NCBI GenBank assembly: GCA_918797485.1 | Contig: CAKKNE010000003.1 | Coordinates: forward strand, 2,790,001-2,854,000 | DNA: 64,000 bases | Reading direction: 5' to 3' | Source: Pelagomonas calceolata | Taxonomy: Eukaryota; Sar; Pelagophyceae; Pelagomonadales; Pelagomonadaceae | In this document: in pieces, positions 4,250 through 60,632 of the stretch | Numbering within the stretch: position 1 is the first letter of the stretch | Layout of the letters: each line of letters opens with the position of its first letter | Notes under the pieces: model-generated | Database searches by the model: none | What the model was told of the DNA's origin: nothing | The model's input: the letters and a program-made list of their open reading frames with translations, nothing else | Made by a program: the position numbers and the translations under genes

Positions 4250-4272
4250 GCTAGTATGTCAAGACGCTAGCT
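4250..4272 (-). promoter_or_regulatory. Palindromic promoter element, copy 1
   Basis: On the minus strand the arms are AGCTAGCG and TACTAGC around TCTTGACA. It sits between two divergent genes. The TGACATACTAGCC end is shared with the copy at 9989. Confidence 0.6.
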
Positions 4273-4494
4273 CACTGCTAAGGCGGCTCTCACAAACTCG
4301 GCGCACAGGGGCCTGCAGGCATCACGGATCGCGGCAAGGAGACGTGCACACAGTGCGCTCACCGCGTCCGACGACTGGTGGCTACACGATCACCGGACGT
4401 GCACCGGACTGCACACCTCGGAGCTGCAGCGGCGGTCCGCATCATTTGCACTCGCCGCAGCCGTGTGAACGTGCTACGAGGCTCACGCCAGTCG

Positions 4495-5178
4495 ATGCGC
4501 GCATCAGCGCTCCTCATCATGGCAGCCATGGACATCAGCAGCACGACGGCGCTGCGCTGCGTCATCGTGCCCGGCAACGGCTGCACGGGCCGCGTCGCGG
4601 ACGCGAATTGGTACGGCTGGCTCGAGCGCGAGCTGCGACGCGATTCACCATTCCGGGAGGTCGTGGTCCCGGAGACGATGCCCGACCCGGTCGGCGCGAA
4701 GGAAAGCGTCTGGGTGCCGTTTATGCGCGACACTCTCAAGGTCGGCGCCGACACCGTCGTCGTCGGCCACTCCTCGGGCGCCGTCGCCGCGATGCGCCTC
4801 GCCGAGGAGACACCGGTCGCTGCATTAGTACTAGTGAGCGCGTGCCACACGGACCTGGGCGACCCGGGCGAGCGCGCGGCGGGCTACTACGCGCGACCCT
4901 GGCGCTGGGACGCCATCAGGGCGAATGCTGGGCGCATCGTCCAGTTCCACAGCGACAACGACCCGTTCATCCCGGATACCGCGCGATCGCGGCGTCCTTC
5001 GATCGCGCCATCGATGCGACGTGCCCCTGACGCTGTCGTTCAAACACAGGAGGCGCGCCACGTCGCCGAAAACCTACAAAGCGAGTACTCCGAGCTGCCG
5101 GGCCGCTCCCACTTCTTTACGCCGCCGTTCGCCGAGTGCCTCGAGGTCTGCCGAGAGATCGCAGCTAGCACAACATAG
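4495..5178 (+). CDS. RBBP9/YdeN-type serine hydrolase
   Basis: This is an alpha/beta hydrolase of the RBBP9 (DUF1234) family, a small cytosolic serine hydrolase. The nucleophile elbow GHSSGA, the acid site in HSDNDPFIP and the catalytic His in GRSHFF are all visible. The start could be the ATG at 4495, 4519 or 4528. The first is used, and the last gives the usual family N-terminus. Between FIP and VAENL there is an extra stretch of 23 residues. Its DNA (4981-5049) begins GC, ends AAACACAG, carries the introner-like core and is a multiple of three. Removing it restores the exact family spacing, so it is probably an in-frame GC-AG intron. This is not proven. Confidence 0.85.
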   Translation: MRASALLIMAAMDISSTTALRCVIVPGNGCTGRVADANWYGWLERELRRDSPFREVVVPETMPDPVGAKESVWVPFMRDTLKVGADTVVVGHSSGAVAAMRLAEETPVAALVLVSACHTDLGDPGERAAGYYARPWRWDAIRANAGRIVQFHSDNDPFIPDTARSRRPSIAPSMRRAPDAVVQTQEARHVAENLQSEYSELPGRSHFFTPPFAECLEVCREIAASTT

Positions 5179-5219
5179 CGCTGCAGCAGGGCGCTGCTTG
5201 AGTAAAGAGTGTGTGGTAA

Positions 5220-5237
5220 GCGTCGCGGCGATGGCGT
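5220..5237 (-). repeat. Leader/introner core repeat, copy 2
   Basis: Eighteen bases match the core of the leader repeat at 4048 and follow GTGTGTGGTAAG, which resembles an introner terminal repeat. It lies between the 3' ends of two convergent genes. It could be a decayed introner fragment. Confidence 0.45.
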
Positions 5238-5298
5238 GGTGGTAGCGGGCTAAAACGCCCTCGCCGCGACTCATCACAATATAAGTTACAGACAACAA

Positions 5299-6777: not shown

Positions 6778-7120
6778 CTTTTTTGGTTTGGCGGCGTAGC
6801 GATGCTCAGGCCTCGTGCAGCGGTCGGAGCTTGACCTCGGCTACCTCTTGGGTTTGTAACAGAGAGTGGGTCGAACTTGTTGTTCTTTGCCCAGAAAAGT
6901 CGTGTGCTAAATTGGTGCTAGTGCCTTTACAGACACTACTTCACTAGCTTTGTTTGGTTTGGCCGCGGAGCGGACGCAGGCGTTAAAAATCGGTATCTCG
7001 GTTATTATCCTGACCCAGAAGTCAACGCGGACCGCGGCGGGCCGCGCCGGAAAGCGCTCTTACATTTGAAAATTGAAATCAATCTCGATCTGCCGCGCGC
7101 GCAGAGGGGTTGACGGAGCG
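6778..7120. other. Divergent promoter region
   Basis: This lies between ATG16 (minus) and the ankyrin gene (plus). It holds a palindromic element at 6917-6939 and no coding signal. Confidence 0.5.
6917..6939 (-). promoter_or_regulatory. Palindromic promoter element, copy 2 (diverged)
   Basis: The minus strand reads TGTAAAGGCACTAGC at one end, but the other arm is GTAGTG instead of GCTAGCG. A further CACTAGC follows at 6942-6948 on the plus strand. Divergent gene pair. Confidence 0.5.
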
Positions 7121-7936
7121 ATGGAAGACGACGGCGTCCCTGAAAGAATCTTTGACGCGGCGTGCGACGGCGACCTGGAAGAAGTGCAAAAATTTCTAGC
7201 CAGCGTCGCCACGCCGCGAGACGTCGTGAACAGCATAGATCCTGCTGCGCCTGGCAGCAATGCAACGCTTCTCTCTTGTGTGACCTGTGAAGTTCGCAAC
7301 AACGTGAGGCACGTCAAAATCGTGAGACTGCTCATTTCCCACGGTGCTAACGTGAATCAAATCGAGACGGGCGGGGCATCGCCGCTACACAACGTACTGC
7401 ATTTTTTTGGCCATGGGTGCTCGGGAAAAGCAGTTATCGATGTGGTCAAGTCTCTCCTGAGGGCAGGGGCTGATGTTAATCGCGCAGGTGGAAGGTACGT
7501 AGGCCTTCCAATCACGATGGTCATCGAAAAGTTGGCGAAACGACGTCGTCCTGACAGTGCGGCGCTTGCGGAACTTGTGAAAATGCTCCTGCGTGCGGGT
7601 GCCTCCGTAGATAGTTCTAGTGAAGGGAAATTGACTGGGTGGCAAAGTATGCGGAATGTTTGGCTTACTGCTGTTCGGACACATCGGTACGACGACGACG
7701 GCAGGTGCGCCGAGCTCCTTGCCGATCCCCACTTCATCACGATCAAAGCCCAGATAGACGGCGTCCACGCGCACGGTTCCTGGCGCGCGTACATCATGGC
7801 GCCGCGGTTGGAGGTCTTGACCCTCCGCGGTCTCGCGAACCGCGGCAAGATCCGCTCGACGGACCCCGCGCTGAACAACCTCGTCGCGCTCCCGAATGAG
7901 CTCATCTGCCAGGTACTCGCGTTTTGGTCCGGCTAG
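7121..7936 (+). CDS. Ankyrin-repeat protein with C-terminal F-box-like tail
   Basis: The protein has 271 aa from the ATG at 7121. The frame extends upstream only to a non-ATG start. Ankyrin repeats are visible at about residues 8-165: FDAACDGDLEEVQKFL, VRLLISHGANVNQ, VKSLLRAGADVNRAGG and VKMLLRAGASVD. The tail ends in LPNELICQVLAFW, which resembles the first helix of an F-box. Ankyrin repeats bind proteins, and the tail may link to an SCF ubiquitin ligase, an inference. Large ankyrin families are common in algal genomes. Confidence 0.8.
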   Translation: MEDDGVPERIFDAACDGDLEEVQKFLASVATPRDVVNSIDPAAPGSNATLLSCVTCEVRNNVRHVKIVRLLISHGANVNQIETGGASPLHNVLHFFGHGCSGKAVIDVVKSLLRAGADVNRAGGRYVGLPITMVIEKLAKRRRPDSAALAELVKMLLRAGASVDSSSEGKLTGWQSMRNVWLTAVRTHRYDDDGRCAELLADPHFITIKAQIDGVHAHGSWRAYIMAPRLEVLTLRGLANRGKIRSTDPALNNLVALPNELICQVLAFWSG

Positions 7937-8022
7937 CGGCGCAGCCACGTAGCCGAGAGCGTGACTCAGTACAAGACTGATGAAGCAAGCGCACAAGGCG
8001 CTACCAAGATGACTAAGAAAAC

Positions 8023-9846: not shown

Positions 9847-10153
9847 GTGTGTGGTGTGAGTAAGCTATGATCTGTGCTCTGCTGCGCACGACTGCAGAAA
9901 TGGTCCGGTTGCAGTACTACGTGCCTGCTTGTGCTCCGTGACCGCCCTGGAAGTGCTTTATCAGCGCCACCTCCTTCACGGAGCAAAACTAGCGTACTGA
10001 CATACTAGCCCGGAGAGCAAAACGCAGCGCCGAGGGTCAAGAGCAGTCCCTAGCCACCCGAGCGCACCGTGAGGAAACCGGAGAAAGTGCACGGGACCAC
10101 AGAAGCCAGAGGAAACGCTCGGGGCAGCCCATCACGGACCAGGAGCGAGCATA
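9847..10153. other. Divergent promoter region
   Basis: This lies between the carotenoid isomerase-like gene and the 10154 gene. It holds a palindromic element at 9989-10009. Confidence 0.5.
9989..10009 (+). promoter_or_regulatory. Palindromic promoter element, copy 3
   Basis: CTAGCG, then TACTGACA, then TACTAGC, between divergent genes. Its end TGACATACTAGCC equals that of copy 1 read on the other strand. Confidence 0.6.
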
Positions 10154-11398: not shown

Positions 11399-11419
11399 TC
11401 GTCTAAATAATCGCTGTGT

Positions 11420-12547
11420 TTACTTACGCGAAGCCGCAGTAAGTATCGCCCGGGAGCTCCACCGCAGGTCTCCCTTAATTCCCTCTGTGAGCGGGTGCGC
11501 GCCACCGAGCACTTGCCGCGCGGTCCGTCCCGCGTCCTCGAGTGTATTCACGGCCTCGCGGAGGTCGTCGAGCGTGGCGGCGGAGTTCTTGTAGAGCCCC
11601 TTCGCGTAATTCCACCTCAACCTGAGCGTAAGATCATTACCCTCTCCAAGAACGCGCCGCGCCACCGGCATCGTCTTGCGCAGCACCGACTTGGCTTCTT
11701 CGAAGCGCTCTAGAGTGACAAGAGTCGACGCGTAGTTGTTGGCCGAAATAAGGGTTCTCTCGTTTTCTTCGCCATAGAGTTTCAAACGTCCAGAGTAAAC
11801 TTCCTGCCGCATGCGTAGGGCCTCTTCGACGCGTCCTAGCTTTTCATAGGTGTTTGCAAGATTGTTCTGCGCGACGAGTATGTTTTCCTCTCGTGAGCCA
11901 AGTCGCCGCTTCATAGCCAACTCGGCCAGTTGCACGGACAACGCGGCCTCGTTGTCTTTTGAGCCGAATAAACCGTTCCCGAGCACCTCTATCGCCAAGC
12001 GCCGAGCCCAGTCCGTCTCCGGCCGCCCCGCGTACGTCTTCCAGCACGCCCACCCGAGCGCGCACTTCACGTCGCCGTGGTAGCGTTGCTCGCACAGGCT
12101 GCACGAGTACCACCGCGCCCATCTCTCATTCACGACTTTCTCACCCCAATTGTTCTCCACGGCCTCCTCGAATAAAATCTTCGCCTGCTCCGCCAAGCAC
12201 GACACGTGCGCGAAGCCCGCCGTCCCGCGGCACGCGCACCCGCGCACGAGGCCCTCCTTTGTCTTCCAGTGGAGGGCCTGCGTGCAGATGAAGCACGTCT
12301 GGCCCTCCGTGTCATCCGCGCACGCCTCCGCCGCGACCGCGACGGCCTCCGTATACTTCGTATTTGCGTTGTATTGCTCTGCGCCGCCTGCTTTCTTTAT
12401 TTTCTTGCAGAGATTATCGTGGCCACCCTCTTGCCAGTGCTGCACCTGGCATTCAGCCCCACAATAGCGCGTGCTGCAGCGGCCGCATTTCTTGCCCAAA
12501 GTTAGGCCAAGGTCGGTGGCGCAGACGGCGCACTGCGTGAGGATCAT
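11420..12547 (-). CDS. MYND zinc-finger and TPR protein, copy A
   Basis: The protein has 375 aa from the ATG at 12545-12547. The upstream extension starts at a non-ATG codon. A MYND finger covers about residues 5-46 (CAVCATDLG, CGRCSTRYCGAECQVQHW, H and C ligands). A second Cys-rich block at about 80-165 (CFICTQAL, GCACRGTAGFAHVSCL, CSLCEQRYHG) resembles a RING-CH or RING-variant domain. TPR-like repeats follow (NNLANTYEKLGRVEEALRMRQEVY and related). MYND and TPR modules both bind proteins, and the RINGv part suggests ubiquitin ligase activity, unproven. It is a close paralogue of the gene at 37310-38494, with matching upstream DNA. Confidence 0.8.
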   Translation of the reverse strand: MILTQCAVCATDLGLTLGKKCGRCSTRYCGAECQVQHWQEGGHDNLCKKIKKAGGAEQYNANTKYTEAVAVAAEACADDTEGQTCFICTQALHWKTKEGLVRGCACRGTAGFAHVSCLAEQAKILFEEAVENNWGEKVVNERWARWYSCSLCEQRYHGDVKCALGWACWKTYAGRPETDWARRLAIEVLGNGLFGSKDNEAALSVQLAELAMKRRLGSREENILVAQNNLANTYEKLGRVEEALRMRQEVYSGRLKLYGEENERTLISANNYASTLVTLERFEEAKSVLRKTMPVARRVLGEGNDLTLRLRWNYAKGLYKNSAATLDDLREAVNTLEDAGRTARQVLGGAHPLTEGIKGDLRWSSRAILTAASRK

Positions 12548-12849
12548 CTTGCACGCGGTCAAATCGCTCGGGGGCAGCCGTACGAAGCAAAACGCGTCTT
12601 GGTCTCTCTGAGCTAGTGCCTTACAAGACGCTAGCTAAAGCTGCGCCGGTGCTTGAGCTCGGCCCCGCAGCGCTCCCAGAGAATTGGCCGTTGCGGAGGT
12701 GAAGACCTCAAGTAGTACTGCGGCCCTCCTCCCGGAGCGGCGGGGCGCGTCCCTGAAACGCCAGAGACTGCTTTCAGGTCAGGTGGACTCCACGCCACGC
12801 AAAGAACTCCGCGCGCGGACGCGCGTTAGGTCACAAGCACCCAAGAACC
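12548..12849. other. Divergent promoter region
   Basis: This lies between the MYND/TPR gene copy A and the HECT gene. It holds a palindromic element at 12611-12636. The first about 90 bp resemble the upstream region of copy B. Confidence 0.5.
12611..12636 (-). promoter_or_regulatory. Palindromic promoter element, copy 4
   Basis: The minus strand reads AGCTAGCG, TCTTGTAAGG, CACTAGCT, a nearly perfect 8-base inverted repeat. It lies 63 bp upstream of the MYND/TPR copy A ATG. The paralogue at 38494 has the same element. Confidence 0.7.
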
Positions 12850-15714: not shown

Positions 15715-15727
15715 ACATATTGTTCAC

Positions 15728-16102: not shown

Positions 16103-16438
16103 CCCAACGTTTCACGTCTCGCGTTACAGTGCGGGAGCTCGCGCAGCTATTATTTCGCGAATTATACGTAGCGCGGAATTGATGTGGCCGCGGGCTCCGC
16201 GTCAACGCCAACTTTGGTGCACAGCTGCAAACACTTTGCTCGGGGCGCAGTTCTTGGACAGGAGCCGACGCGTGGGCGCGCTCGCTGCGCGCGTCAATGT
16301 CACCAAGTCTTGCGCTGGCTCGTGCCGTCTGTCAACCACACAGGGCCGACGCAAGATTTTGGTTCTGCAGCTAGCGGCTGTAAGGCACTAGCAAGCAGAA
16401 AGCTATCACACAAAGTTAAGGTTACCCGCGAAGCTCGC
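16103..16438. other. Intergenic region upstream of the RING gene
   Basis: This lies between two minus-strand genes. It holds a palindromic element at 16369-16392, which is 267 bp upstream of the RING start and close to the 3' end of the ferredoxin-domain gene. Confidence 0.45.
16369..16392 (+). promoter_or_regulatory. Palindromic promoter element, copy 5
   Basis: AGCTAGCG, GCTGTAAGG, CACTAGC. This is a near-consensus copy upstream of a single minus-strand gene. Confidence 0.6.
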
Positions 16439-17659: not shown

Positions 17660-18061
17660 GCTTACAAGGCTACACGTCGCATTTTGCTCGTGCGCGGCGC
17701 GAACGCTACTTCAAACTGATCGACGAGGGTACAGAGATGCCCAGGAGGTTGTCCGCGCCGTTTCGCAACGAGTCGAGGCGAATTCGACGCGGTCGTGGCC
17801 AGCCGCTCGTCTTTGCTCTGCTCAAAGGCACGCGCGCTTGGGGTCGGCATCTGAGGGCCCGTTGGAACGAGTTGCTATTGACTTCCCCGCATTGCTTGAC
17901 GCACGGATCCTCGGGCGCCTCATCCCCATTGCAGCGCGGAAAGTGAGCACAAGTCGACCCGCGCGGCCCGGGAAACGAGTCACATCCCCCCCAGGGGCTC
18001 CGCCCACTAGTCCTAGCCTCGTAACAATACGTAGGTAAAAGAGTCACACACAAACACTTAC
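17660..18061. other. Intergenic region upstream of the ferredoxin-domain gene
   Basis: This 402 bp stretch separates two minus-strand genes. I see no palindromic element, intron signal or coding frame that I can support. Confidence 0.4.
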
Positions 18062-19342: not shown

Positions 19343-19486
19343 GTGGTTTTGGTGTAGCACTGATCGAAAAACGCTGCGATTTGGAGTGCGCGCGAGTTTT
19401 GTGGTTGCTGTGAGTCTTAAAAACGCACGCCTGCCGGCAAGGGGGCTGTAGCAGCTGATCTTTGCAAAGCGCGTGAAAGCTGAAAA

Positions 19487-19508
19487 CTAGCGTATACACA
19501 CACACTAG
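19487..19508 (+). promoter_or_regulatory. Palindromic promoter element, copy 6 (diverged)
   Basis: CTAGCG, then a TATACACACA run, then CACTAGC, between divergent genes. Arms are kept and the core has changed. Confidence 0.45.
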
Positions 19509-19593
19509 CAATCCAAAAACGAAGCCGGCAGCACCTGTGCCGCTTGTATCCACGCGCCGTGGCATTGGGCAGCCTCCATAACTCAGGAGCAAC

Positions 19594-22296: not shown

Positions 22297-22732
22297 TTTT
22301 CGTTGTCGCGCTGTGACCTTCCGGCGAGAGGCCTCTTTTGTATAAGTTGGTGCGCCGCGGGCCGCGGCGCTCACGGGGCTGAGCTGAGGCTTTCAGTAGG
22401 CTGCTGGGGAGCCAGTGCGCGTCCGTCAGCGTTCAGGCAAGTCGATTCTCGTGTACACAACGCGCTGAGACTCGGGTCAGCTATCTGATCAAGCTAGCGG
22501 TAAGACACTAGCGAGCAGCCAAAAAAGCTCAGAATCGCTGCACGCGCAGCACAAACGTCCCCACTGCACGCAGACACGCGCAGATCTTTCCTATTGCAAG
22601 CTTACTACAGCCAAACTTCGTTGCGGCCCCAAAAAACGCGCGCCAAAGGCCCTCTCCCATAGGCTGCTACCACAAGGCAAACACAGCGCGACGCACGCCG
22701 GACGCCGTCGACACGCTCCTACAAAAGCTACC
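22297..22732. other. Divergent promoter region
   Basis: This lies between the USP gene and the dehydrogenase gene. It holds a palindromic element at 22492-22512 and no supported gene. Confidence 0.5.
22492..22512 (+). promoter_or_regulatory. Palindromic promoter element, copy 7
   Basis: AGCTAGCG, GTAAGA, CACTAGC. This is a copy with a shorter core, between divergent genes. Confidence 0.65.
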
Positions 22733-25399: not shown

Positions 25400-25818
25400 T
25401 TTGAGCGCTGTGGTATTTTTGTTGTGTCGCTTGTACGGCGTCCACGGGCCGCGGTTCGCGCCGCGCTGCTGGCTGCAGTGCAGGGATACGGTGAGGTCAC
25501 TGCTGAAGACGCGCAGCAGTCAAACGTAGTCCGAGGCTCGTGTATGAGCTCAGGTCAATTCAATTCATCTCTGAACTGATTTTTGAGTGCGGGTGCAGTT
25601 TAAATTTCAGCTGTACGAAATCGACCACAGACGCCACGAAGAGAGTCGTCGGCCCAACATAGCCGCTGATAGGGCTCCTGCGGCAGAGCCCGCACCTCCA
25701 GAGGAGCGCCTGCAGGCTGCCCGGCTTGGCAGGACGCCGGCTGCCCAGACGCCATCGCCGCGACGCCTCGGCGTTCCGACCATACCATCACTGCGGCAGC
25801 AGGCCAGCGGCATATATC
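25400..25818. other. Divergent promoter region without palindrome
   Basis: This 419 bp stretch lies between the WW/zinc-finger gene and the introner-split gene. It holds the 29-base leader repeat at 25740-25768 but no palindromic element, one of the few divergent regions without one. Confidence 0.5.
25740..25768 (+). repeat. 5' leader repeat, copy 3
   Basis: These 29 bases are identical to 4048-4076 (read on the other strand). They end 50 bases upstream of the ATG at 25819. Confidence 0.7.
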
Positions 25819-27668
25819 ATGTCTCGCGAGGGCAGCCCAACACGAGATGTAGTGGAGGGCGGCCGCGCGACGACCCCATCCTCAGGCCTGCGGGGCTCCA
25901 TGGACAGCCTCTTCTCGAAGGCGTCTTCTTCAATTCAGAGCGCGGCGCAGTCGGCCGCGCAAGCCGTCCAGGACACCGCGCAAAGCGTGGCCCGGAGCCC
26001 GGCGCGGCGGCGCCCGACACGAGAGGAAAACGCGACGAAGACCCCGCCGCCCTTCTTCAAGACGGCAGCCGCAGCTAGGAGAGCCGGCGTCTTTCCGTCC
26101 CAACCGAACAATGCGAGAACCGTGAACTCGAAGGAGTTCTGGGAGGAGCCTTATGATTATACGAAGGGCGCCAAGTTTATTGGTCCTGCCATAAATGACG
26201 GCGGTGCCAAACCCGAACGCAAGGACCAGAGAGGCTTGTATGTCAGGGTGAGGCTGAAGGGCGGCGAGCCCCCTGCGGATGGCTTCACGAGTCCGCCACC
26301 GCCTCCAGTGCCCACCGAGGTGAATAAGGAGGGCAAGCAAGTGCCCCGGACGAAGTTTTCGAAGGAGGAGTGGGATTTATCGCAACAAGAGTTGGATGAG
26401 CGGCTCGAAGCGATGGGCTTCGAACCCACTTATCACGCTCGTATAAGGAAAGCTCAGCGGGAAGAAGCGAAGCATACCAAATGGGAGGTGGACCATGGGC
26501 CTCGACAGGCGCAGTGGGCCGACTACCTGCGGGAGCACCCGAATCCTTTCAAAGATAGGCCTGACTTGTTCCCGACGCATCTCGGGCGGCCGCGGCATGA
26601 TCCTCTCGGTGGGGAGCCGTCCATGTTCGAGCATTTGTTCAAGAACAAGGATGGTACTGATAAGCGGCCGTTCACGATCGTTCATGAAGACGAATTTCAA
26701 CGAATCGTGGAGCAGAACGCGCGTGAGGAAGAAAACTGGGAGCCCAAGGAGCCGGAACCGGGCTGGGAGGTCACGGAGCATCCCTCCGTGGCCGAGGAGG
26801 CTAGGATCGCCGCGGAGGACGCGCAAGCGGCTCTCGAAGGCCGAAAACTGGACTTCGGCAACAACCCGTGTGGAAATCTTCGCGTCGACCTCCACGCCAT
26901 CGACGCGACGCCTGCTCGATGGCGTGACGATGCCGGTTCCTCACCGTTCGATGGGGCCAGCACGGCCGCGTCGTCGCCGAGAAATGACTTAGTGAAGAAT
27001 CATCGGCATCCGACTCACTGGTTGATTTACGCACAGGCAACGACTTCGGGAAACCAGGCAAGGTCTACCCCAAGTTCAAGTGGCCCTCGGAGGAACTCTA
27101 CCCCGACCAAGCGCCGAGTGGTGAGGATATCGACGCCTCGTCCGACGTCGACGCCTCGTCCGACGTCGACGCCGCGTCTGATGACGAGGACGACGCGCCG
27201 GGCCCCATCGAAGACTGGTTAAATGAAAATGTACCTGCGGTGATGGAGGCCGCGCGGAAGAATGGTGGCGACCCGGAACGACTGAAGGAGATCCATATCC
27301 TATACAAAAAAATGATGGTGGCGCACTGGGAGGTGTTTGCCAATGACCTCGGGCCGCGGCGCGATCGCTTCGTGCGGGCGTGGCCTGGTAGAAACCAGGA
27401 GCAGATGTGGCAGGTCGTCTGGGACCTATTTTGTGGCGTCCACGAGATCGAGCGGTTCGTGAAGATCTGTCGCGAGTACGCGATGCAGGAGACGGACGAT
27501 GAATACGCCAAAAGGACGGCCAAGGGCGAGATGCACTGGTCGCACCCCATGTGGAAGCCGCCCTCCGAGCGGCGGCGGAACGCGATCGCGTTCGTGCCCG
27601 GCGAGGATGGCGAGGCGCCGCCGTCGACGGCGCGGTCGGACTCGACGGCGAGCGTGGATAACTGGTAG
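25819..27668 (+). CDS. Unknown protein, split by an introner (exons 25819-26857 and 27037-27668)
   Basis: The spliced protein has 556 aa from the ATG at 25819 (upstream codons only offer a TTG). The intron 26858-27036 has GC at its 5' end and AG at its 3' end. Splicing joins LDFG to NDFGKPGKVYP and keeps the frame open to 27668. Exon 1 has an Ala/Ser helix near residues 35-65 and a charged middle. Exon 2 has an acidic DASSDVDASSDVD repeat and a helical conserved-looking end with many Trp. No known domain is recognised. The GT donors inside the repeat run into a stop, so the GC donor is preferred. Confidence 0.75.
26866..27035 (+). mobile_element. Introner element forming a GC-AG intron
   Basis: About 170 bp, flanked by near-identical 9-base target copies (26857-26865 and 27036-27044, one mismatch: GGCAACAAC and GGCAACGAC). 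The ends are GTGTGGAAATC and GATTTACGCAC, an imperfect inverted repeat. The 3' end carries ACTCACTGG, a branch-point-like stretch, and the acceptor. The inner core CCACGCCATCGACGCGACGC is shared with the introner at 59838. The target lacked GT, so the donor is GC. Established knowledge: introners with these features are known in Aureococcus. Confidence 0.8.
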
Positions 27669-28338: not shown

Positions 28339-28440
28339 ATCGATGCGTTACGGCTCTGTTGATGAGCGATGCCGTCTACTGCTGTGGCCGAGCACCGAAA
28401 GCGATCGATTTTGGGCCTGCAATCGAAAGCTGCACAGACT

Positions 28441-28466
28441 AGCTAGCGTGCAAAGACACACTTAGC
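28441..28466 (+). promoter_or_regulatory. Palindromic promoter element, copy 8 (diverged)
   Basis: AGCTAGCG, TGCAAAGACA, CACTTAGC. The left arm is intact and the right arm has an insertion. Divergent pair. Confidence 0.5.
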
Positions 28467-28542
28467 GAGATCAGCAAACGTCATCAACGCACCGGCAAAC
28501 GCTAGTTATCCAACAAACACTGCCTGACCGCAGCCGCAGCAC

Positions 28543-28705
28543 TCGTCGGGACGCTATCGACGCGTGACGCGTGCAACTCGATATACTGCCGTGCTAACAA
28601 AGCCTCTCTGAGAGCACTGCACTACAACTCGCAGCGACGCTATCGAGGCGTGACGCTTGCACTCAGCGCTTCACACTGAGAACACTGCCACTACAACTAA
28701 GCAAC
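28543..28705 (+). repeat. Diverged tandem repeat, unit about 86 bp
   Basis: A 26-base stretch (GACGCTATCGA, then GCGTGACGC) at 28550-28575 recurs at 28636-28661 with 2 differences, and the similarity reaches outward to a shared ACTACAACT at the unit ends. It lies in the 5' leader or promoter of the 28715 gene. Confidence 0.6.
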
Positions 28706-28714
28706 TTCACAACA

Positions 28715-31122: not shown

Positions 31123-31488
31123 GGCTGCGCTCGGCGGCGTCCGGCGTCGGCCGGTCAAATGGCTTTTGGTCGCTTCCGCAGCGGCGGCGCGGCGTCGGGT
31201 GCGGCGCAGAGGTCGTGGGCGCTTTCGAGCAAACAAATGCTACGCTGAGATCGCTCGTATGTCCGCAAATACTACAGCTTGCCAAAAAAACCGCAGGCTC
31301 TCGATTATGTAATTTTTGTTAGGTTATAGAGATACTAGAATTAGCGCTGCTCTCGTGAAGTGCTCTCCCGGCCAATCTCTGGCACGAGGCAGGCAGAAAT
31401 TAGTAAGGGAAGTCCAGGCCCCCTCTGTCGAGGAGCGGAACCGGACGGGGCAGCCCGCGGCCCGACCAAGGACACGAACAGACATAAC
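31123..31488. other. Divergent promoter region without clear palindrome
   Basis: This lies between the PTEN-like and kinase genes. A loose stretch ATACTAGAATTAGCG near 31331 has parts of the palindrome arms, but I do not count it. Nothing else is seen. Confidence 0.4.
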
Positions 31489-34449: not shown

Positions 34450-34473
34450 AGCTAGCGGTCTGTAACATACTAG
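34450..34473 (+). promoter_or_regulatory. Palindromic promoter element, copy 9
   Basis: AGCTAGCG, GTCTGTAACA, TACTAG. It lies 163 bp upstream of the REEP-like gene, in a region with no divergent partner on the other side. Confidence 0.55.
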
Positions 34474-34545
34474 AAGCACGCTTTCGACGCGAGCAACAGA
34501 CGCATACACCACTGAACTAGACTGTACAACACCACATTAGTCAGA

Positions 34546-35184: not shown

Positions 35185-35619
35185 TGTTGCGTAGCGATGT
35201 GTGCGAGCCGTGCAAGTTGTAGTAGTGATGCGTGAGGTCTGTACTAATGAGTTATAATGAACAGTGATGGCCTTGCAGCGATTTTATTAGGCTAATGCGG
35301 CCGGCAAGAGAGCTAGCTGCTGTAAGACACTAGCCAGCATGCGGCCCGACGTCTCCCTCGGGCCGTCGAGGAGTCGTGCTAGGACAGATGCGCCTCCAAA
35401 GACCGGTCTTTGTACGCCTCACTCCTCTGCAAATTTCCTAACAAACTCCAAAACCCTAGGCCAAGCTGGCTTTTGTTTCTCCGCCGTGACAAATCGCAAC
35501 GCTGCCCAACCACGAGGCAGCCGCCGCTCGCATCGTTGGCGCACTCCGGACGCCATCGACGCAGCTCCGGACGCCGTTCGACGCGCCAGCTTGGCCACAG
35601 AGCAAAGCTGAGCAAGTAA
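35185..35619. other. Divergent promoter region
   Basis: This lies between the Sel1 gene and the band-7 gene. It holds a palindromic element at 35311-35334 and a leader-like GGACGCCATCGACGCAGC near 35548. Confidence 0.5.
35311..35334 (+). promoter_or_regulatory. Palindromic promoter element, copy 10
   Basis: AGCTAGCT, GCTGTAAGA, CACTAGC. One change in the left arm. Divergent pair. Confidence 0.65.
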
Positions 35620-37224
35620 ATGTCCACGGCCCGCACGCCGCTGGAGCAAGCCATGTTACTGGATGATCAAAAGGGCGAGGCGCGCATCAGCCCGCGCTTC
35701 GACACCATGGACCGCGGCGCGCCCGCCGGGAGGGCCGAAGACACCCCCGCGTACATCGCTTTACGAAGGGCCGGTGTTTTATGCACGGAGCACCGCCGCA
35801 AGGACATCGAGGACATCTTTACCGGTTTAGACCTCAAGCAGAACACGGACCAGTGGAAGAATATTGTAGCACGGGCGAAGAACTGTTGTTGTTTGGTGCC
35901 TTGTGCTTATTATGCCTGCCATACCGAAATGTTCGTGCCCGCGGGTCACGTTGGGTTCCTCATGGACCAGCAAAACCGCTACTTGTTCGCGCAGCCGGGC
36001 ATGCACAACATCAACTCCATGTTCATTCGCGTGACGAGTGAACCGAGGCCGCTGCGGGGCCACATCAAGCACGGCAATCGCACGATAGTAGTAGTGGATC
36101 AAGGGAGTATTGGCTACGCGTCGGACAACGGTCAGCCCGTATTACTCCCACCTGGTATACATGTCTGGACGTCCGAGAGTATGGATTTCGTGTCGCAATT
36201 TCATTTAAATGACCACATCATCGAACTCGGTCCTTATACCCTTGTTACCGTAAATGAGGGGTATTCGGCCGTGACCCAGAACAATGGGAAACAAGTCATA
36301 CTCGCGGGCGGGCATACGCACTTCCTCACCCATAAGAACTGGAAGTTCGAGAAATTTATAACCCTCAAAATCCAGACGGATGAGCTCGAGAGAATCCAAG
36401 CTACAAGTGCGGACAACATCAACATGTTGGTGAATTCTACGGTGAATTGGCGCATCGTTGATGTGGAGGTCGCGGCGACGATGGCGGCCGAGACGATGGC
36501 GCAGAGCGGCAAGGGCAAGATCGCCGCGGACATCTCGAAACTAAGGAGAGATGTTCTCAAACAAGCATTAGCTTCGTTGGCGGCGTTCATCGGCTCCGTG
36601 AACTACTCGGAGTCGTTCCACATGAGTGCGGCGGCGCAAGCTGCTGGAAGAGAGGCACCTGTCGCCGCCGCTACTCTCGTAGAAGAGACGCCCGCAACCG
36701 TCGGCGCCTTCGCGGACAACCCGCTCTACAACCTGGAGAAGATGGGCAGCGCGGTCGAGCACGCTAATAGTGTAACGAGGAGCTACGGCATCGAGATCAT
36801 GTCGATCAATATTATTTCAGCTGCTCCTGTTGATGATGCTTTGACTAAATCGTTAGCGTCTGGTGCGGTCGCGTCGGCCGAGGCCCTCATGGCCGAGACA
36901 ACCGCTAGAGGCCAGTCGCGCGCCGTGACCATCGCGGCGGAAGCCGACGCGGCGGCGTTACGCATCCGCGCCGAGGCCGACGCCGAAGCTGAAAAGCTGA
37001 GAGCCGAGGGCCGCGCGGAAGGCCTCAAGGCCGTCTCCGACGCGCTGACGGCGGCCGGCGGCGAGCAGGCCATGGTCCAGAACATCGCCGAGAAGTACAT
37101 CGCCTCGCTGAGCACGATGGCGAACACGGCGAACATGATCATCGTGCCCGACAAGCCCAACGACGTCTCGGGCGTCGTCACGACGGCGCTCGCGCTCGGC
37201 AAGCAGGTCGCGGCGAAGGCGTGA
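35620..37224 (+). CDS. SPFH/band-7 domain protein (flotillin/stomatin superfamily)
   Basis: The 534 aa protein starts at the ATG at 35620. A Cys-rich hydrophobic patch near residue 88 (NCCCLVPCAYYAC) is a likely palmitoylation or membrane-contact site. A band-7/SPFH domain follows with MFVPAGHVGFLMDQQ, GIHVWTSESMDF and a coiled stretch AEADAAALRIRAEADAEAEKL near 440-470 (read in parts). The C-terminus has AEKYIASLSTMA, as in flotillin-like proteins. SPFH proteins scaffold membrane domains. The role here is unknown. Confidence 0.8.
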   Translation: MSTARTPLEQAMLLDDQKGEARISPRFDTMDRGAPAGRAEDTPAYIALRRAGVLCTEHRRKDIEDIFTGLDLKQNTDQWKNIVARAKNCCCLVPCAYYACHTEMFVPAGHVGFLMDQQNRYLFAQPGMHNINSMFIRVTSEPRPLRGHIKHGNRTIVVVDQGSIGYASDNGQPVLLPPGIHVWTSESMDFVSQFHLNDHIIELGPYTLVTVNEGYSAVTQNNGKQVILAGGHTHFLTHKNWKFEKFITLKIQTDELERIQATSADNINMLVNSTVNWRIVDVEVAATMAAETMAQSGKGKIAADISKLRRDVLKQALASLAAFIGSVNYSESFHMSAAAQAAGREAPVAAATLVEETPATVGAFADNPLYNLEKMGSAVEHANSVTRSYGIEIMSINIISAAPVDDALTKSLASGAVASAEALMAETTARGQSRAVTIAAEADAAALRIRAEADAEAEKLRAEGRAEGLKAVSDALTAAGGEQAMVQNIAEKYIASLSTMANTANMIIVPDKPNDVSGVVTTALALGKQVAAKA

Positions 37225-37309: not shown

Positions 37310-38494
37310 TTAGGACCCGTCCAGTAAATTCACAGCGGCCACCGCCTCGCAGACAGAGGTCACGCAGTCACCTTCGCGGGCGGCGAGCGCGGCCCCCGCG
37401 TCTCGCAGGGCATTCTCAATTCCTTCTGTGGTCGGATGTGCGCCGCCTAGCACGCGCCGCGCGATCCGTCCCGCGTCCTCGAGCGTCGACACGCCCTCGC
37501 TGACATCGTCGAGCGTGGCACTGGGGTCACAGCAGAGCGCCAGCGCATAATTCCACCTCATTTTGAGCGTGATTCTATGTTCTTCTCTGAGAACGCGTCG
37601 CGCCACGGGCATCGTTTTGCGTAGCAACGCCTTGGCTTCTTCGGAGCGCTTGAGAGTAAGAAGGGACTTCGCGTAGTTGTTGGCTGCTGAGAGGACATTA
37701 TTATCTTCTTCACCAAAGAGCTTTAATCCTCCGGCGTATGCCTCTCGCCGCAAGCACATGGCCTGGTCAAGCCGTCCAAGCGCCTGATACGTGCTCGCAA
37801 GATTAGTCTGCGCGACGAATATGTCGCTATTGTCTGAACCGCCAATTCGCCGCATCATGGACAACTCGGCCTCCATCACCGACGCCGCGTCCGCGTGGTG
37901 TTCCGCACTGTATAAACCGCCCCCAAGCAGGTTCATCGCAGTTCGCCGAAGCTTGTCTGTCTCCGGCCGACCCAAGTATGTCTTCCAGCACGCCCACCCG
38001 AGCGCGCACCGTACGACCGTGTGATAATCTTGCTCGCACAGGCTACACGTGTACCACCGCGCCCACCTCGGCACAAACTTATCAGAGCCCAAAAAATTAT
38101 TTTCCTCGGCCTCCGCGACCAAAATCTTCACCTGCTCTGCCAAGCACGACACGTGCGCGAAGCCCGCCGTCCCGCGGCACGAGCACCCGCGCACGAGGCC
38201 CTCTTTCGTCTTCCAATGGAGGGCCTGCGTGCAGATGTAGCACGTCTGGCCCTTTGTGTCGTCGGCGCACGCCTCCGCCGCGCGCGTTACGGCCTCCGTG
38301 TACTTCTTATTTGCGTTGTACTGTTCCGCGCCACCAGAGCGCTTTATTTTCTTGCAGAGCTGGTCGTGCCCGCCTTCTTTCCAGTGCTGCACCTGGCATT
38401 CGGGGCCACAGTAGCGCGTGCTGCAGCGGCCGCATTTCTTGCCCAAGGATAAACCAAGGTCGGTGGCGCAGACGGCGCACTGCGTGAGGATCAT
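37310..38494 (-). CDS. MYND zinc-finger and TPR protein, copy B
   Basis: The 394 aa protein starts at the ATG at 38492-38494 (MILTQCAVCATDLGLS). It has the same domains as copy A at 11420-12547: MYND (about 4-46), RING-variant Cys block, then TPR-like repeats. The first about 165 residues are nearly the same in both, and the C-terminal part has diverged and is longer here (AAREGDCVTSVCEAVAAVNLLDGS). The upstream DNA also matches copy A, including a palindromic element. A C-rich tract lies just past its 3' end (37244-37260). Confidence 0.8.
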   Translation of the reverse strand: MILTQCAVCATDLGLSLGKKCGRCSTRYCGPECQVQHWKEGGHDQLCKKIKRSGGAEQYNANKKYTEAVTRAAEACADDTKGQTCYICTQALHWKTKEGLVRGCSCRGTAGFAHVSCLAEQVKILVAEAEENNFLGSDKFVPRWARWYTCSLCEQDYHTVVRCALGWACWKTYLGRPETDKLRRTAMNLLGGGLYSAEHHADAASVMEAELSMMRRIGGSDNSDIFVAQTNLASTYQALGRLDQAMCLRREAYAGGLKLFGEEDNNVLSAANNYAKSLLTLKRSEEAKALLRKTMPVARRVLREEHRITLKMRWNYALALCCDPSATLDDVSEGVSTLEDAGRIARRVLGGAHPTTEGIENALRDAGAALAAREGDCVTSVCEAVAAVNLLDGS

Positions 38495-38538
38495 CTCTTG
38501 TGAACAAAACGCGACGGGGGCAGCCCTACTCGAGTAAG

Positions 38539-38563
38539 GCTAGTGCCTTACAGGACGCTAGCT
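38539..38563 (-). promoter_or_regulatory. Palindromic promoter element, copy 11
   Basis: The minus strand reads AGCTAGCG, TCCTGTAAGG, CACTAGC. It lies 44 bp upstream of MYND/TPR copy B and matches the copy at 12611. Confidence 0.7.
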
Positions 38564-38759
38564 CTATGTTTTTGCGTCCACCGCCCGTAGCCATCGCTGG
38601 TTGATTGTTTGCGGGTGCTATCGGCATCTCGGACGTCGCTCATAACTTGCGCAAGCCGCGGCGATCGCTGCTTGACCGGCGCGTTACACTAGGCGTAGGT
38701 CCCCACTGAGTGGCCCTCACCACTGGCTGAATAAGCGCGAGGACACGCGGCGGGGAAAG

Positions 38760-40459: not shown

Positions 40460-40824
40460 CGTTATGTGATGCGCACCGTCAGCTTGAATCGCGCAATGCA
40501 ATCGCGCAGCAATGCAGTATTTTGAATCCAGCGAGAGCACCAATGCGATTATCGCGTGTGGAAGCGCGCAGCCCGATCCTGCCGCCGCAATACCTCGTCT
40601 TCAATGCCCCGCTGTCCTGCTAGTTGCAATAGTATCAACTGCAGGCGAAATGCTGCAGCGACTCTAAGTTTTCGGTGCTAGCTGTAGTAAGACACTAGCC
40701 AGCTCTCTGAGGCCTAGCCCCTGGATCTAGCCACTATCAGGCACTTCGGGAGACGCCTTTCTACGTCTGTCATTGATTATAAATTTAGGAGAGCCGCGGA
40801 CCTCGCGGAAATCGTGTTAAAGGC
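40460..40824. other. Divergent promoter region
   Basis: This lies between the acetyltransferase gene and the NEMP-like gene. It holds a palindromic element at 40676-40699. Confidence 0.5.
40676..40699 (+). promoter_or_regulatory. Palindromic promoter element, copy 12
   Basis: TGCTAGCT, GTAGTAAGA, CACTAGC, between divergent genes. Confidence 0.6.
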
Positions 40825-42004: not shown

Positions 42005-42028
42005 AGCTAGCGGCCTGTAAGGCACTAG
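42005..42028 (+). promoter_or_regulatory. Palindromic promoter element, copy 13
   Basis: AGCTAGCG, GCCTGTAAGG, CACTAG. It lies 141 bp upstream of a plus-strand gene with the 3' end of another plus-strand gene on its left. Confidence 0.65.
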
Positions 42029-42168
42029 GGATGCCTAGCAAAACGCTCTGCGAGCTTGCGCTGCGCGGTCCTTAGATTCGAGGGAGGGCAGCCCAATCAC
42101 CGTAGAAATAAAGTCGTCAAGCACACAAGTCGCAGTCCTGCACCCGGGGGCTGCCCACTCTCTCCGCC

Positions 42169-46131: not shown

Positions 46132-46207
46132 TGTGTGGTGTCCCAAACGCGCTGCTGGTGGCTCCGGGGCAGCGCTTTTGGCAGCCCCGACTGCGAAACG
46201 AACGCTT

Positions 46208-46227
46208 GCTAGTGTGCTTAGCTAGCG
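46208..46227 (-). promoter_or_regulatory. Palindromic promoter element, copy 14 (short core)
   Basis: The minus strand reads CGCTAGC, TAAGCA, CACTAGC, with perfect arms and a core shortened to 6 bases. Divergent pair. Confidence 0.55.
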
Positions 46228-46352
46228 CGCCGCGGGTCAGCGCTCCGAGAGCAAAAACGGGGTGCGTAAGCAGCGAGAGAGAGAGCGAGCAAAAAAGTGC
46301 ACTCCGAACGTAATACGCAGCCCGAACGACGTCGCGGCATCAATTCCTCACC

Positions 46353-47543: not shown

Positions 47544-47566
47544 TAGGCTCCATAAGTCAACAATTT

Positions 47567-50329: not shown

Positions 50330-50735
50330 TTTATCGGTGCGGCGTGCCGCGTCCGCAGCGCCGCGCCGCGCCGATTTGTTTTTTGTAAATTTGCAACTGC
50401 TGTGCTGCTGAGCGTTGCTAGAGCACAGCTGGAGCTGCGCGCGCTGTCTGCGCACTGCTGGTGGGCACTTACGCTCGTGTAAAGCGCTATTGGCTCAAAC
50501 TTCCATGACTTTGCTGCGCCGCGCAATTGCAAAAATTTAATGAATTAATTGCTTTAGTGCCTTACACGCTACCTCGCCGCCGCCGCCTCCGAGCTTTGAG
50601 GGCAACGCTGGTTTAGCATACTCTCAAACGCTGTAATTGGTCCGAGGAGCTTTTCGGCAGCCAGCCGCAGTCGCCTGCCGGCTGGCAGCTTCTAGGATTC
50701 AGCACAGACCCCTCTGACAGGGACCAGCCCAAAAC
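50330..50735. other. Divergent promoter region
   Basis: This lies between the GBP-like gene and the GNAT-CPBP gene. It holds a diverged palindromic element at 50551-50572. Confidence 0.45.
50551..50572 (-). promoter_or_regulatory. Palindromic promoter element, copy 15 (diverged)
   Basis: The minus strand reads GTAGCG, TGTAAGG, CACTAAAGC. Both arms carry changes while the TGTAAGGCACTA core is kept. Confidence 0.5.
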
Positions 50736-52220: not shown

Positions 52221-52235
52221 GTCACACAGTTATAC

Positions 52236-54218: not shown

Positions 54219-55138
54219 CTAGGAGAAGTCCACCCGCGCGAACCGCTCCTTCCCCGCCAAATCAACGAAGCTTTCGCACGCGAAAGACGGCTTCAGCAGC
54301 GCCGGCCCCGTCTCATCCAATTCGAGCCACACGCCCTTGCGATCCCCCCGCAAGACCAAGGGCGCCCGTGCCAACAACTGACGCGCGACCACCAAACCGT
54401 CGGCACCACCATCTAAAGCTCGCGGGTCCTCAAAGTCAACGACCTCGGCGTCCAAGCCTCGGAGATCCTGAGACGGGATGTAGGGCGGGTTTGATACAAT
54501 AAAGTCGAAGGCGCCCTCCAGCTGATCGGCCGATTGGCGCGACGCGTCGTATACGGATGAAAGGCCCAATTTTTTAGCGTTCCGTTTTGACAGGGAGACG
54601 GCCTCTTGTGAAATATCAATAGCGGTACAGGAAGAGCCTTCCGGCAGCTTGTTTAGTAAAGCCAGTCCGAGGCACCCGCTTCCGCAGCCGACATCCGCGA
54701 AATGTGCCGTAGACGAACCCCACCAGTCCAGCACCAAATCCACCAACTCCTCGGTCTCGGGCCTGCGGCGGCGAAGCGTCGACGGCGTTTCAGTGGACGC
54801 GCTCACCTCGGGATCAGCGTCGGCGGCTCCAACTCGAGTTCGACGTCGTGGAAGGCCCACGTGCCCACGATGTACTGGACGGGCTCCCTCGTTAATCGCC
54901 TTTCAATAAATGCGGAGAACTGTGCTTGTTCTGATGCGTCGAGGTCTCGCTTCGTCGCGATCGCGCGTGTCACCGAATTCCGGTCCGACTCGCCTAGGGC
55001 GTGGACCAGCAGCCACTCGGCCGAGGCCTGGGCCTCCGGGACCTTGGCCTTATGCAACGCGGCGACGGCGTCGCGCAGGGCGGTCCGCACCGCTACGGAC
55101 GAGGCGTGGCGGAGTAACATTGCCAGAACGAGGCGCAT
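54219..55138 (-). CDS. PrmC/HemK-family protein glutamine methyltransferase (exons 54807-55138 and 54219-54762)
   Basis: The spliced protein has 291 aa from the ATG at 55136-55138. The 44-base intron 54763-54806 is GT-AG. Joining gives LIPRPETEELVD, the exact PrmC family signature, and keeps the frame. Motif I is ADVGCGSGCLGLAL, and the catalytic NPPY is present in IVSNPPYIPS. The N-terminal helical domain (about 1-85) is the usual PrmC one. PrmC methylates the GGQ Gln of release factors. An organelle location is possible, but no clear leader is seen. Divergent from the SLC35-type gene. Confidence 0.92.
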
Positions 55139-55677
55139 CGATGCGGTCGTCAGTCGGTGGATCCAAGGCTACTCTTCGCACCCTCCGGCGACCGCTGCCG
55201 TACGCGTAGAGGCCAGCTGCAGTGATGAGAGTGCTGCACTGCCGCAATTTCTGCGAGAGTTATGCGCTGCGGCCGCGTCCAGCGACTGTAGCCGATACGT
55301 ATAGGTAGCTAGACTCAGATGCAGCCCGCAGCTATCCACGGGCGGCACTCTGCCGAGTTCAAGGCAATAATGCAGCTAGCGGCCGTGAGACACACTAGCC
55401 AGCTCGGCCAACGTAGAGCTACGCCCGACCGGCGGCGCTGGGCCGACCTGTTATTTGTTTCGGAGTTGTTTGAGCTTGTATCAAAGCCACCTGCCGCGTG
55501 CCGAAGCGCCACAGCGCACCGCCCGCCGCATACAAGACTGCCTACTGAGCAGGCGACACAGCACGCGAGGCGAGCGCGCGCGAGCATATATACGGGACGC
55601 CCGACGCCCGTCGACGCCGCACGTAACGCGTAACTAAGCACCGGTAAAAAGCGACGCGCGCCGGCGGACACAACACC
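55139..55677. other. Divergent promoter region
   Basis: This 539 bp stretch lies between the PrmC gene and the SLC35-type gene. It holds a palindromic element at 55374-55399 and no other supported feature. Confidence 0.5.
55374..55399 (+). promoter_or_regulatory. Palindromic promoter element, copy 16
   Basis: AGCTAGCG, GCCGTGAGACA, CACTAGC, between divergent genes. Confidence 0.65.
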
Positions 55678-57081: not shown

Positions 57082-57465
57082 TCTTCGGCGCGTAAGGATG
57101 TGAGTATATGACTCCTTTCGCTCGCGGTGTTTTTGTCGCGGTGCTAGGACTAGCGGCCGGCGCGGCGACGGCGTCGACCTGAAACCCGTCGGGCGGCCAT
57201 CTGTCAGTTTGAGGGTGTACGCTCCGGGGCGCGGCTTCCAGTCAGCTAGCGGCTGTAAGACACTAGCAAGCCAGCAAGCCCAATTTTGCTAGGCTGCTGT
57301 GGCCCGCGTCGTGGCATTTGGCAGCGTGAATTGCACGTGGTAGATCAATACCTGCTGTGCATTCATCAATTACGCCACGACACTGCAGTTTAAAGCACCG
57401 TAATTGCTCCACAAGCTGCATCGGTGATCCGTAATTTTTTCAGCGGAGCGTCAGCAGAGGCTACA
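57082..57465. other. Intergenic region upstream of the exostosin gene
   Basis: This lies between two plus-strand genes. It holds a palindromic element at 57244-57267, and a pyrimidine-rich stretch with CAG near 57440. Confidence 0.45.
57244..57267 (+). promoter_or_regulatory. Palindromic promoter element, copy 17
   Basis: AGCTAGCG, GCTGTAAGA, CACTAGC, the consensus form. It lies 198 bp upstream of the exostosin gene, with no divergent partner. Confidence 0.7.
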
Positions 57466-59253: not shown

Positions 59254-59495
59254 AGGTAATGTGTGTCGTTTGTTGAGTATGTGTCCCCTACACCCAAAAA
59301 CCCGTTTTGCCACGGCCCGACCGCGTCGTCCGCGGTCCGGCGCGTCTCGCGTCGGCTTGCCACCCTTGATTCTGCGAGCACGCCTCGTCGTCGTCTCGAC
59401 GCGCTGGCATAGTTACATCTCTTGTAACTCAAATCACTGAAATCAGCTTGCTTAAGTTGGTTTCACTCCTCTCGTTATCGCACACGTGGACAGGG

Positions 59496-60579
59496 ATGCG
59501 GGCGCTCGCCGTCCTGGCCTTCGCGGCGGCGTGCCCGCGCGCCGCAGCGCTGGTCGTGTACTACAACGTTTTCAGCAAGAACGTCGCGACGGCCGTCGAG
59601 ATCGTCTACGAGCAGCTCACGGAGCTGAGAGCGGCGCCCATCTGGGACGATGTGGAAGAAATCCGCTACAGCACGATCGGCAAGGGCAAGATGCGAAACC
59701 ACGTCGAGAGGATCTGCCGCGAGGTCAACGCGACGACGTGTCGACGCCTCGGGAGCCACAAAACGGGCCACGAGGAGCGGACGCTGACGCCTCTCCACGC
59801 GTTCTGCACGAAGAACCCTGAGGCGTCGGTCGCTTACTGTGTGGAAATCAAAATTCAGACGCCCCACGCCACCGACGCGATGCAACCTAACTCACTGGTT
59901 GATTTCCACACAGGTCGCTTACCTGCACGACAAGGGCTCCTTTCGGAACGTCTTCAATCGCTCGGTCCGCGGGCGCCAGAAACGGCTCCGCCAGGCGTTG
60001 TTGCGCGGCCTCGGCAGCGTCGGCTGCCTCGCGGCGATCACGAAGGGCGACGCCTGCGACGTCTGCTCGACGCACTTCACGGCGCTCCCGCACCAGCACA
60101 CGAAGGGCAACATGTGGCTCGCCTCGTGCCGCTACGTCGCCACGCTCCTGGCGCCACCGTCGTTCCAGAAGGGCATGGACGCGTATTGGGGGCGGCTCGG
60201 CTTCGACAAGGGCGGCACGCTGCTGGGGACGCCCTGGGTCGGCACGGGACGGTACGCCATGGAGCACTGGGTCCACTCGCATCCGTCCGTGCGACCGTGC
60301 GACGTCTCCGAGAAGCCCCTGGAGACGCTCGAGGACATGATCCAGCTCGCGTCGGGCGGCTGGGACTCGTCCGTCGCGACGGCGGCGCCGCGCGTCGACG
60401 CGACACATCCGGGCGCCGGCGAGGCGCTCGGCGAGCGCATCCGCGGCCCGATCCCGAAGAACAAACGGAACTTCAGTACGATCGTGGGCGAGTGGCAAAC
60501 GCTGTATGGAGAGGTGCCCCCCGAGTCGTCGCTCCTGTTGCGGAAGTACCGGCAGATGTACGGCGTGCCTGCCCGATAG
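59496..60579 (+). CDS. Secreted-type protein with YLHDKGS motif, split by an introner (exons 59496-59828 and 59914-60579)
   Basis: The spliced protein has 332 aa from the ATG at 59496. A signal peptide covers about residues 1-18. Splicing joins NPEAS and VAYLHDKGSFRN. YLH(D/N)KGS and CDVCSTHFTALPHQHTKGNMW (in parts) recall a stramenopile protein family sometimes listed as glycosyltransferase-like, but I cannot name the enzyme. It has many Cys in pairs, as expected for a secreted protein. Both halves are out of frame without splicing. Confidence 0.75.
59838..59912 (+). mobile_element. Introner element with perfect 14-base inverted repeats
   Basis: A 75-base element with ends TGTGTGGAAATCAA and TTGATTTCCACACA. 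It is flanked by perfect 10-base target copies GGTCGCTTAC (59828-59837 and 59913-59922). The intron is 59829-59913, 85 bases, GT-AG, with GT from the target copy and AG shared by the element and target. Splicing restores the original coding sequence exactly. ACTCACTGG near the 3' end may be the branch point. The inner core is like that of 26866. Confidence 0.92.
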
Positions 60580-60608
60580 GCCGCGACTAACTTGTACACG
60601 TTCCTAGC

Positions 60609-60632
60609 AGCTAGCGGCTGTAAGACACTAGC
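60609..60632 (+). promoter_or_regulatory. Palindromic promoter element, copy 18
   Basis: AGCTAGCG, GCTGTAAGA, CACTAGC, identical to the copy at 57244. It lies 184 bp upstream of the pyrophosphorylase gene and 29 bp after the previous stop. Confidence 0.7.

Follow-up and report, generated by a model that had tools for sequence, protein, structure and literature searches.

A recurrent asymmetric promoter element in the genome of Pelagomonas calceolata

Introduction

The yeast general regulatory factors Reb1, Abf1 and Rap1 have sites in promoters. The Pelagomonas element described here resembles these sites in that a promoter has a single, well-placed site, often lying between divergent genes, in either orientation and at genes of mixed function. 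The sequences are, however, not known to be related, and the Pelagomonas site is longer, with about 28 bits in two blocks. In vertebrates, the ZNF143 and NRF1 sites are known as bidirectional-promoter motifs, and the ZNF143 site is long and composite. The likeness lies in their presence at many genes whose promoters are TATA-less and bidirectional, which is a feature of these vertebrate motifs. The CGCG element TCTCGCGAGA, also of vertebrates, is reported as another bidirectional-promoter motif of this kind (PMC6192621). It is a perfect palindrome of different sequence, whereas the Pelagomonas site is asymmetric by rule.

The motif GCTAGC is reported for the apicomplexan AP2 factors PF11_0442 and TgAP2XI-5 (PMC2965767, PMC6631176, PMC4035076). 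The same six-base core is present in the left half-site of the Pelagomonas element, and AP2 domains are encoded in the Pelagomonas genome. The apicomplexan motif is a single short palindrome, whereas the site in Pelagomonas is a composite of ~24 bp with a fixed asymmetry.

The published assembly of P. calceolata RCC100 is described as comprising six nuclear contigs with a total of 32.4 Mb, together with one plastid and one mitochondrial contig; 16,667 genes were predicted, and a 393-kb region is duplicated between contigs 1 and 5 (PMC9481584). The same paper describes the introner elements of pelagophytes, which, like the motif, are dispersed in many copies in this genome (PMC9481584). Unlike the motif, which is short, intergenic and without homology in its flanks, an introner is an intron of about 210 bp whose interior is homologous to that of others (PMC9481584). 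The words ‘motif’ and ‘palindrom’ do not occur in the main text of the genome paper (PMC9481584). No description of the element was found in full-text literature searches, judged by titles and the first lines of abstracts among the papers listed; the literal motif string is present in a paper on diphthamide (PMC3709272).

Sequences and Gene Models

The window, i.e., the whole stretch of DNA to which the original observation refers, has a length of 64,000 nucleotides (C3:2790001-2854000) and belongs to a genome with 8 contigs and a total of 32,445,274 bases. The detailed survey was carried out on 264 kb, which consist of the window and C1:1-200000. Gene models and start codons in this sample are predictions of a coding HMM trained in the present analysis; 185,867 of the 264,000 bases are predicted to be coding, and the end of the gene is uncertain at some gaps. 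There are 45 gene segments in the window, and 22 of the 30 proteins tested matched Pfam at an E-value of 1e-5 or better, with functions that are mixed and unrelated. A two-block profile of the element was trained on the 264 kb, with a threshold of 17.5 bits for a copy and the reversed, uncomplemented sequence as the control. C1:1-200000 probably lies within the region duplicated between contigs 1 and 5, with paired matches on C1 and C5, and duplicates are therefore counted in the genome totals.

Occurrence and Copy Number

The recurrent promoter element of the window is real, and it extends far beyond the window. The pattern GCTAGCG-N(0-6)-GTAAGRCACTAGC matches 1,505 times genome-wide (766 and 739 on the two strands), while the same pattern read backward has no match on either strand. 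The looser CTAGCG-N(6-14)-CACTAGC gives 2,886 matches (1,436 and 1,450) against 19 (9 and 10) for the backward-read pattern, and TGTAAGRCACTAGC gives 683 and 665 against none on either strand. Within the window, seven exact matches to GCTAGYG-N(2-14)-CRCTAGC were found, compared with none in 100 shuffles.

At 17.5 bits or more, the profile identified 51 copies in the 264 kb and one in the reversed sequence. As this sample contains 31 strict copies, extrapolation from them leads to an estimate of ~4,700 copies genome-wide. Under a second-order model, words of the motif are among the most over-represented words of the divergent and tandem gaps. Beside them stand CGTCGACG and further words of introner-like or GC-repeat type, which are still over-represented after masking of the motif. 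With a higher Markov order, even the motif is barely conspicuous.

The motif had no match in viral contigs, and the six stretches matched among the searched genome contigs are at about chance level by our own rough estimate. The loose pattern was not enriched in six MAGs, with 18 matches versus 202 for the reversed control, and these matches served as pointers to contigs only. No Rfam match was found in the window or in the contigs L030, L065, L066 and L068, which are described below.

The window was originally reported to hold 18 copies (Table 1). Fourteen of them score at least 17.5 bits. The four listed at 6917, 28441, 46208 and 50551 are degenerate, with gapped scores of 12.5–14 versus 7.5–9.5 for the reversed gaps; they are probably decayed copies and are less certain one by one. 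The two copies that were said to be identical, at 57244 and 60609, are so, at 57245 and 60610. As originally stated, 13 of the 18 lie between divergent starts, copies upstream of a single gene occur as well (five), and predicted coding sequence holds none; gaps between convergent genes hold none either. When the divergent gaps of the window were aligned to the consensus, 13 of 15 reached a score of 11 or better, compared with 0 of 15 reversed gaps. The two gaps in which no such alignment was found are 25400-25899 and 31123-31488.

A gene region of ~1 kb is duplicated in the window (11463-12447 and 37404-38394, 72–87% identical); matches to TPR and MYND were obtained for the second of the two. 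A motif copy lies just upstream of each region (12612 and 38539), both with GTAAGGCACTAGC.

Table 1. Coordinates of the motif copies, the ~156-bp repeat and the open frames with two AP2 matches. Positions without a contig name are those of the window.
Feature	Position	Strand	Location	Score	Distance to ATG
Motif copy	4250..4271	-	divergent gap 4041-4494	27.9 bits	
Degenerate copy	6917..6940	-	divergent gap 6778-7648	14.4 bits; gapped 14, reversed gap 8	
Motif copy	9988..10009	+	divergent gap 9847-10153	23.5 bits	
Motif copy	12612..12635	-	divergent gap 12548-12849	31.6 bits	
Motif copy	16370..16392	+	upstream of minus-strand gene segment 15894-16102	30.1 bits	267 bp
Motif copy	19486..19509	+	divergent gap 19343-19593	21.5 bits	
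Motif copy, spacer 0	22493..22512	+	divergent gap 22297-22732	31.4 bits	
Degenerate copy	28442..28465	+	divergent gap 28339-28714	10.3 bits; gapped 12.5, reversed gap 9.5	
Motif copy	34451..34474	+	upstream of minus-strand gene ending at 34286	29.1 bits	164 bp
Motif copy	35312..35334	+	divergent gap 35185-35652	30.1 bits	
Motif copy	38539..38562	-	divergent gap 38495-38759	31.6 bits	
Motif copy	40677..40699	+	divergent gap 40460-40824	30.1 bits	
Motif copy	42006..42029	+	upstream of plus-strand gene at 42169	28.3 bits	139 bp
Degenerate copy	46208..46233	-	divergent gap 46132-46352	<8 bits by profile; gapped 13, reversed gap 8	
Degenerate copy	50553..50573	-	divergent gap 50330-50735	10.7 bits; gapped 12.5, reversed gap 7.5	
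Motif copy	55375..55399	+	divergent gap 55139-55677	27.5 bits	
Motif copy	57245..57267	+	upstream of plus-strand gene at 57466	33.2 bits	198 bp
Motif copy	60610..60632	+	upstream of plus-strand gene at 60817	33.2 bits	184 bp
~156-bp repeat	L030:299-455				
~156-bp repeat	L030:2050-2172				
~156-bp repeat	L065:5285-5348				
~156-bp repeat	17985-18026				
~156-bp repeat	C1:25749-25869				
~156-bp repeat	C1:27104-27173				
~156-bp repeat	C1:48383-48538				
~156-bp repeat	C1:51072-51149				
Two-AP2 open frame	C5:1432792-1433214				
Two-AP2 open frame	C1:927014-927445				
Two-AP2 open frame	C3:3483267-3483704				
Two-AP2 open frame	C3:427864-428268				

Structure of the Element

In the profile of 51 copies, the left block GCTAGCG is conserved at 77–97% per position (pseudocounts included), and ACTAG of the right block GTAAGACACTAGC is conserved at 97% at each position. 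The whole site measures roughly 24 bp and carries about 28 bits in its two blocks. The right block, in the form GTAAGRCACTAGC, contains a second, inverted half-site that reads GCTAGTG on the opposite strand. The spacer before GTAAG, said to be 1–4 bases, is actually 0–6, with a mode of 4, and several of the listed starts include the A before GCTAG. Among the 100 strict matches listed, all on the forward strand of C1, the distance from CTAGCG to CACTAGC is 10 in 57, 9 in 23 and 8 in 12, and more rarely 11 (three), 12 (three) or 6 (two). The predominance of one strand among the places listed is attributed to the listing, since the genome-wide totals of the two strands are balanced. The arms are thus conserved around a spacer that varies in both length and letters. 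The G and T of GTAAG are present at 62% and 69%, respectively. An A is preferred just before the left block (37 of 51 copies), and a weak AAG follows the right block (26, 33 and 24 of 51 copies per position). The remainder of each 60-bp flank holds almost no information, and homology ends at about 28 bp.

The outer arms were originally taken for a palindrome, a description that does not stand. Position 6 of the left block is C, and it faces an A in 50 of the 51 copies, so that the arms form no true palindrome. The symmetric form GCTAGCG-N(6-14)-CGCTAGC has 19 sites genome-wide, each on both strands, compared with 7 + 7 in the control, and is more than 100 times rarer than CTAGCG-N(6-14)-CACTAGC (19 vs. 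2,886). The element is an asymmetric site of two related, inverted half-sites. This asymmetry favors a multi-domain protein or a mixed complex over a plain homodimer as the candidate reader. Of the original prediction, the symmetric palindrome is unsupported and so is the plain homodimer that goes with it; the other part, a promoter-associated bidirectional element compatible with the site of an abundant factor, is supported by the positions of the copies, their indifference to orientation and their counterparts in a relative.

Position Relative to Genes

None of the 51 copies in the 264 kb lies in predicted coding sequence. Copies occupy 30 of 47 divergent gaps, 16 of 51 tandem gaps and 0 of 49 convergent gaps (Fisher’s test for divergent vs. 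convergent, 4e-13). The convergent gaps are short and add up to 8,766 bases; by length only, the probability that all 51 copies miss them is 0.002. Four of 54 intron-like gaps hold five copies, one such gap having two. Each of the 46 occupied divergent and tandem gaps contains a single copy. Elsewhere, a pair of copies 37 bp apart is found at C1:575887 and C1:575924. A gapped search at a score of 12 found the element in 33 of 47 divergent gaps (three when reversed) and in 0 of 40 convergent gaps (0 when reversed). At a score of 11, the numbers were 37 of 47 (six) and 4 of 40 (two).

The distance from a copy to the ATG is tightly constrained, with a median of 192 bp and quartiles of 157–233 bp (n = 71). 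In the tandem gaps, all 16 copies are 139–267 bp away from the ATG downstream; their distances to the upstream gene range from 6 to 1,765 bp. Overall, 72% of the 71 distances fall within 120–260 bp, compared with 36% when copies were placed at random within these gaps; none of 5,000 random trials was as clustered, for a range that was picked after the data had been seen. Both sides of a copy are equally far from the ATG, and there is no effect of orientation: the tandem gaps hold 10 sense and 6 antisense copies.

These data also bear on the idea that the motif is a 5' splice site of 5'-UTR introns, which had been raised originally, or an RNA hairpin in 5' UTRs. The similarity of GTAAGA to the 5' splice consensus, arms that could pair and an ATG distance compatible with a position in the UTR would all fit. 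Nevertheless, both forms of the idea are hardly credible. The GT is not invariant, the tandem copies show no sense bias, and a copy between divergent genes can be sense for only one of them. A hairpin would carry a C/A mismatch in its stem in 50 of 51 copies, while symmetric versions are the rare ones.

Base composition changes around the site. A+T is ~40% within 100 bp, where the central bins contain the site itself, and mostly 33–37% beyond 200 bp. The A-over-T skew in the direction of the gene is weak around the site up to 120 bp: within 60 bp it is negative or close to zero, at 60–90 bp it is positive, and from 120 bp onward it is consistently positive. Such a profile would be expected if transcription starts flank the site.

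Counterparts in a Related Lineage

The bacterial MAG ‘Spirochaeta sp. MED672’ includes the contig L030, which aligns collinearly with C6:2236569-2246679 at 83–94% identity; the relative that it represents is about 84% identical. Judging by this alignment, L030 is a misbinned pelagophyte contig; L029 also aligns, in part, as pelagophyte. Four more contigs of the MAG (L065-L068) are collinear with the genome at 75–87%, with one 255-bp piece at 96%. At least five contigs of this MAG (L030 and L065-L068) are thus pelagophyte contamination, and they are a useful source of a related lineage.

Each of the four P. calceolata copies within the range syntenic with L030 is matched by a copy in the corresponding gap. 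The L030 copies at 2198 and 4290 align directly with P. calceolata copies, the weak copy at 7635 pairs with one of equal orientation in the same gap, and the copy at 5352 with one that is in the same gap but inverted. One of the five L030 copies, at 461, is without a P. calceolata counterpart above 10 bits. A copy at C1:1469790 sits where L068:495 maps, and the spacer differs. L029:2146 matches the copy at C1:2154907 letter for letter, L029 being from a near-identical strain. Altogether, 38 kb of the MED672 lineage hold 12 profile copies, none of them in coding sequence, while the reversed control has none. Where a facing start was seen, these copies are 90 to 496 bp from it, a wider range than in P. 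calceolata.

Dispersed Repeats

Another explanation is that the copies belong to a short repeat, either MITE-like, as had been raised originally, or derived from an introner, which would insert preferentially in promoters without itself having a function. Thousands of dispersed copies are what such a repeat would produce, introner-type repeats are reported in this genome (PMC9481584), and a ~156-bp repeat ends 6–35 bp from a motif copy in five cases. We regard this explanation as very improbable, since the lack of homology beyond about 28 bp, with 60-bp flanks almost free of information, and the conservation of the arms around a variable spacer argue against it. The same applies to the counterparts at orthologous promoters of the relative, to the distance rule and to the absence from 49 convergent gaps. 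Moreover, three of the five copies of the ~156-bp repeat in the 264 kb have no adjoining motif.

The ~156-bp repeat has at least 39 matches in the genome at 80–88%, without an Rfam match in the searched loci. Of the eight places in Table 1, five have the repeat ending 6–35 bp from a motif copy and three do not. Introner-like repeats with many genome copies were also observed at L066:1484-1545, L066:2251-2400, L068:1503-1613 and L065:6251-6303. Some of these share the words GCCATCGACGCG or the complement, and related words are over-represented in gaps. The gaps concerned may hold unpredicted introns.

Proposed Role

We consider it likely that the element is a composite, directional binding site, used in either orientation, of an abundant promoter factor or complex, with about one site per promoter in the middle of mostly bidirectional promoters. 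The left half-site GCTAGCG, usually preceded by A, the spacer and the right block would together form the DNA-binding site. An abundant, sequence-specific candidate factor or complex would bind it, as a rule once per promoter. The site would mark the middle of the promoter at about 190 bp from each start codon and may act like that of a general regulatory factor, maintaining a nucleosome-free gap. Transcription would begin from this gap on one or both sides, some 60–120 bp from the site. Promoter enrichment, a constrained position and occurrence in either orientation, which were all found here, are typical of general regulatory factors. The position rule, the single copy per promoter, the independence of orientation, the conserved arms with their flexible spacer and the mixed functions of the targets suggest a DNA-bound factor that serves promoters generally.

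The predicted ATG faces a divergent or tandem gap in 136 genes; in 70 of these, a copy lies no more than 400 bp away, and the element is therefore not universal. The 66 genes without a copy in this range would fit a single transcription factor whose regulon is very broad yet specific, e.g., growth- or light-driven genes. In apicomplexans, single AP2 factors are reported to bind GCTAGC (PMC2965767, PMC6631176, PMC4035076), and AP2 matches were also obtained in Pelagomonas. This explanation is unlikely in our view, as a single copy in each occupied gap, divergent or tandem, and window genes of mixed function look general. The scope of the factor, i.e., a broad regulon or promoters in general, is nevertheless where the strongest rival lies.

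A bolder version of the promoter-factor reading is put forward tentatively, at somewhat less than even chances. The element might be a lineage-specific, promoter-defining element of Pelagomonas, perhaps of all pelagophytes, in which a long composite site without symmetry, present once in each promoter, lets an undescribed multi-domain factor or mixed complex open the bidirectional promoters of about half of the genes, replacing canonical signals. If this is true, a site of ~24 bp predicts the position of the promoter for thousands of genes of an ocean alga. It would also help to correct gene starts, offer parts for genetic tools and raise the question of which protein reads the site and when the site arose.

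As for candidate readers, the genome has 27 AP2 matches, five of which are over the curated cut-off. Four times, two matches are paired in one open frame of 260–305 aa (Table 1); one of these eight matches is over the cut-off. As a lead only, the two-AP2 frames are candidate readers of the two half-sites.
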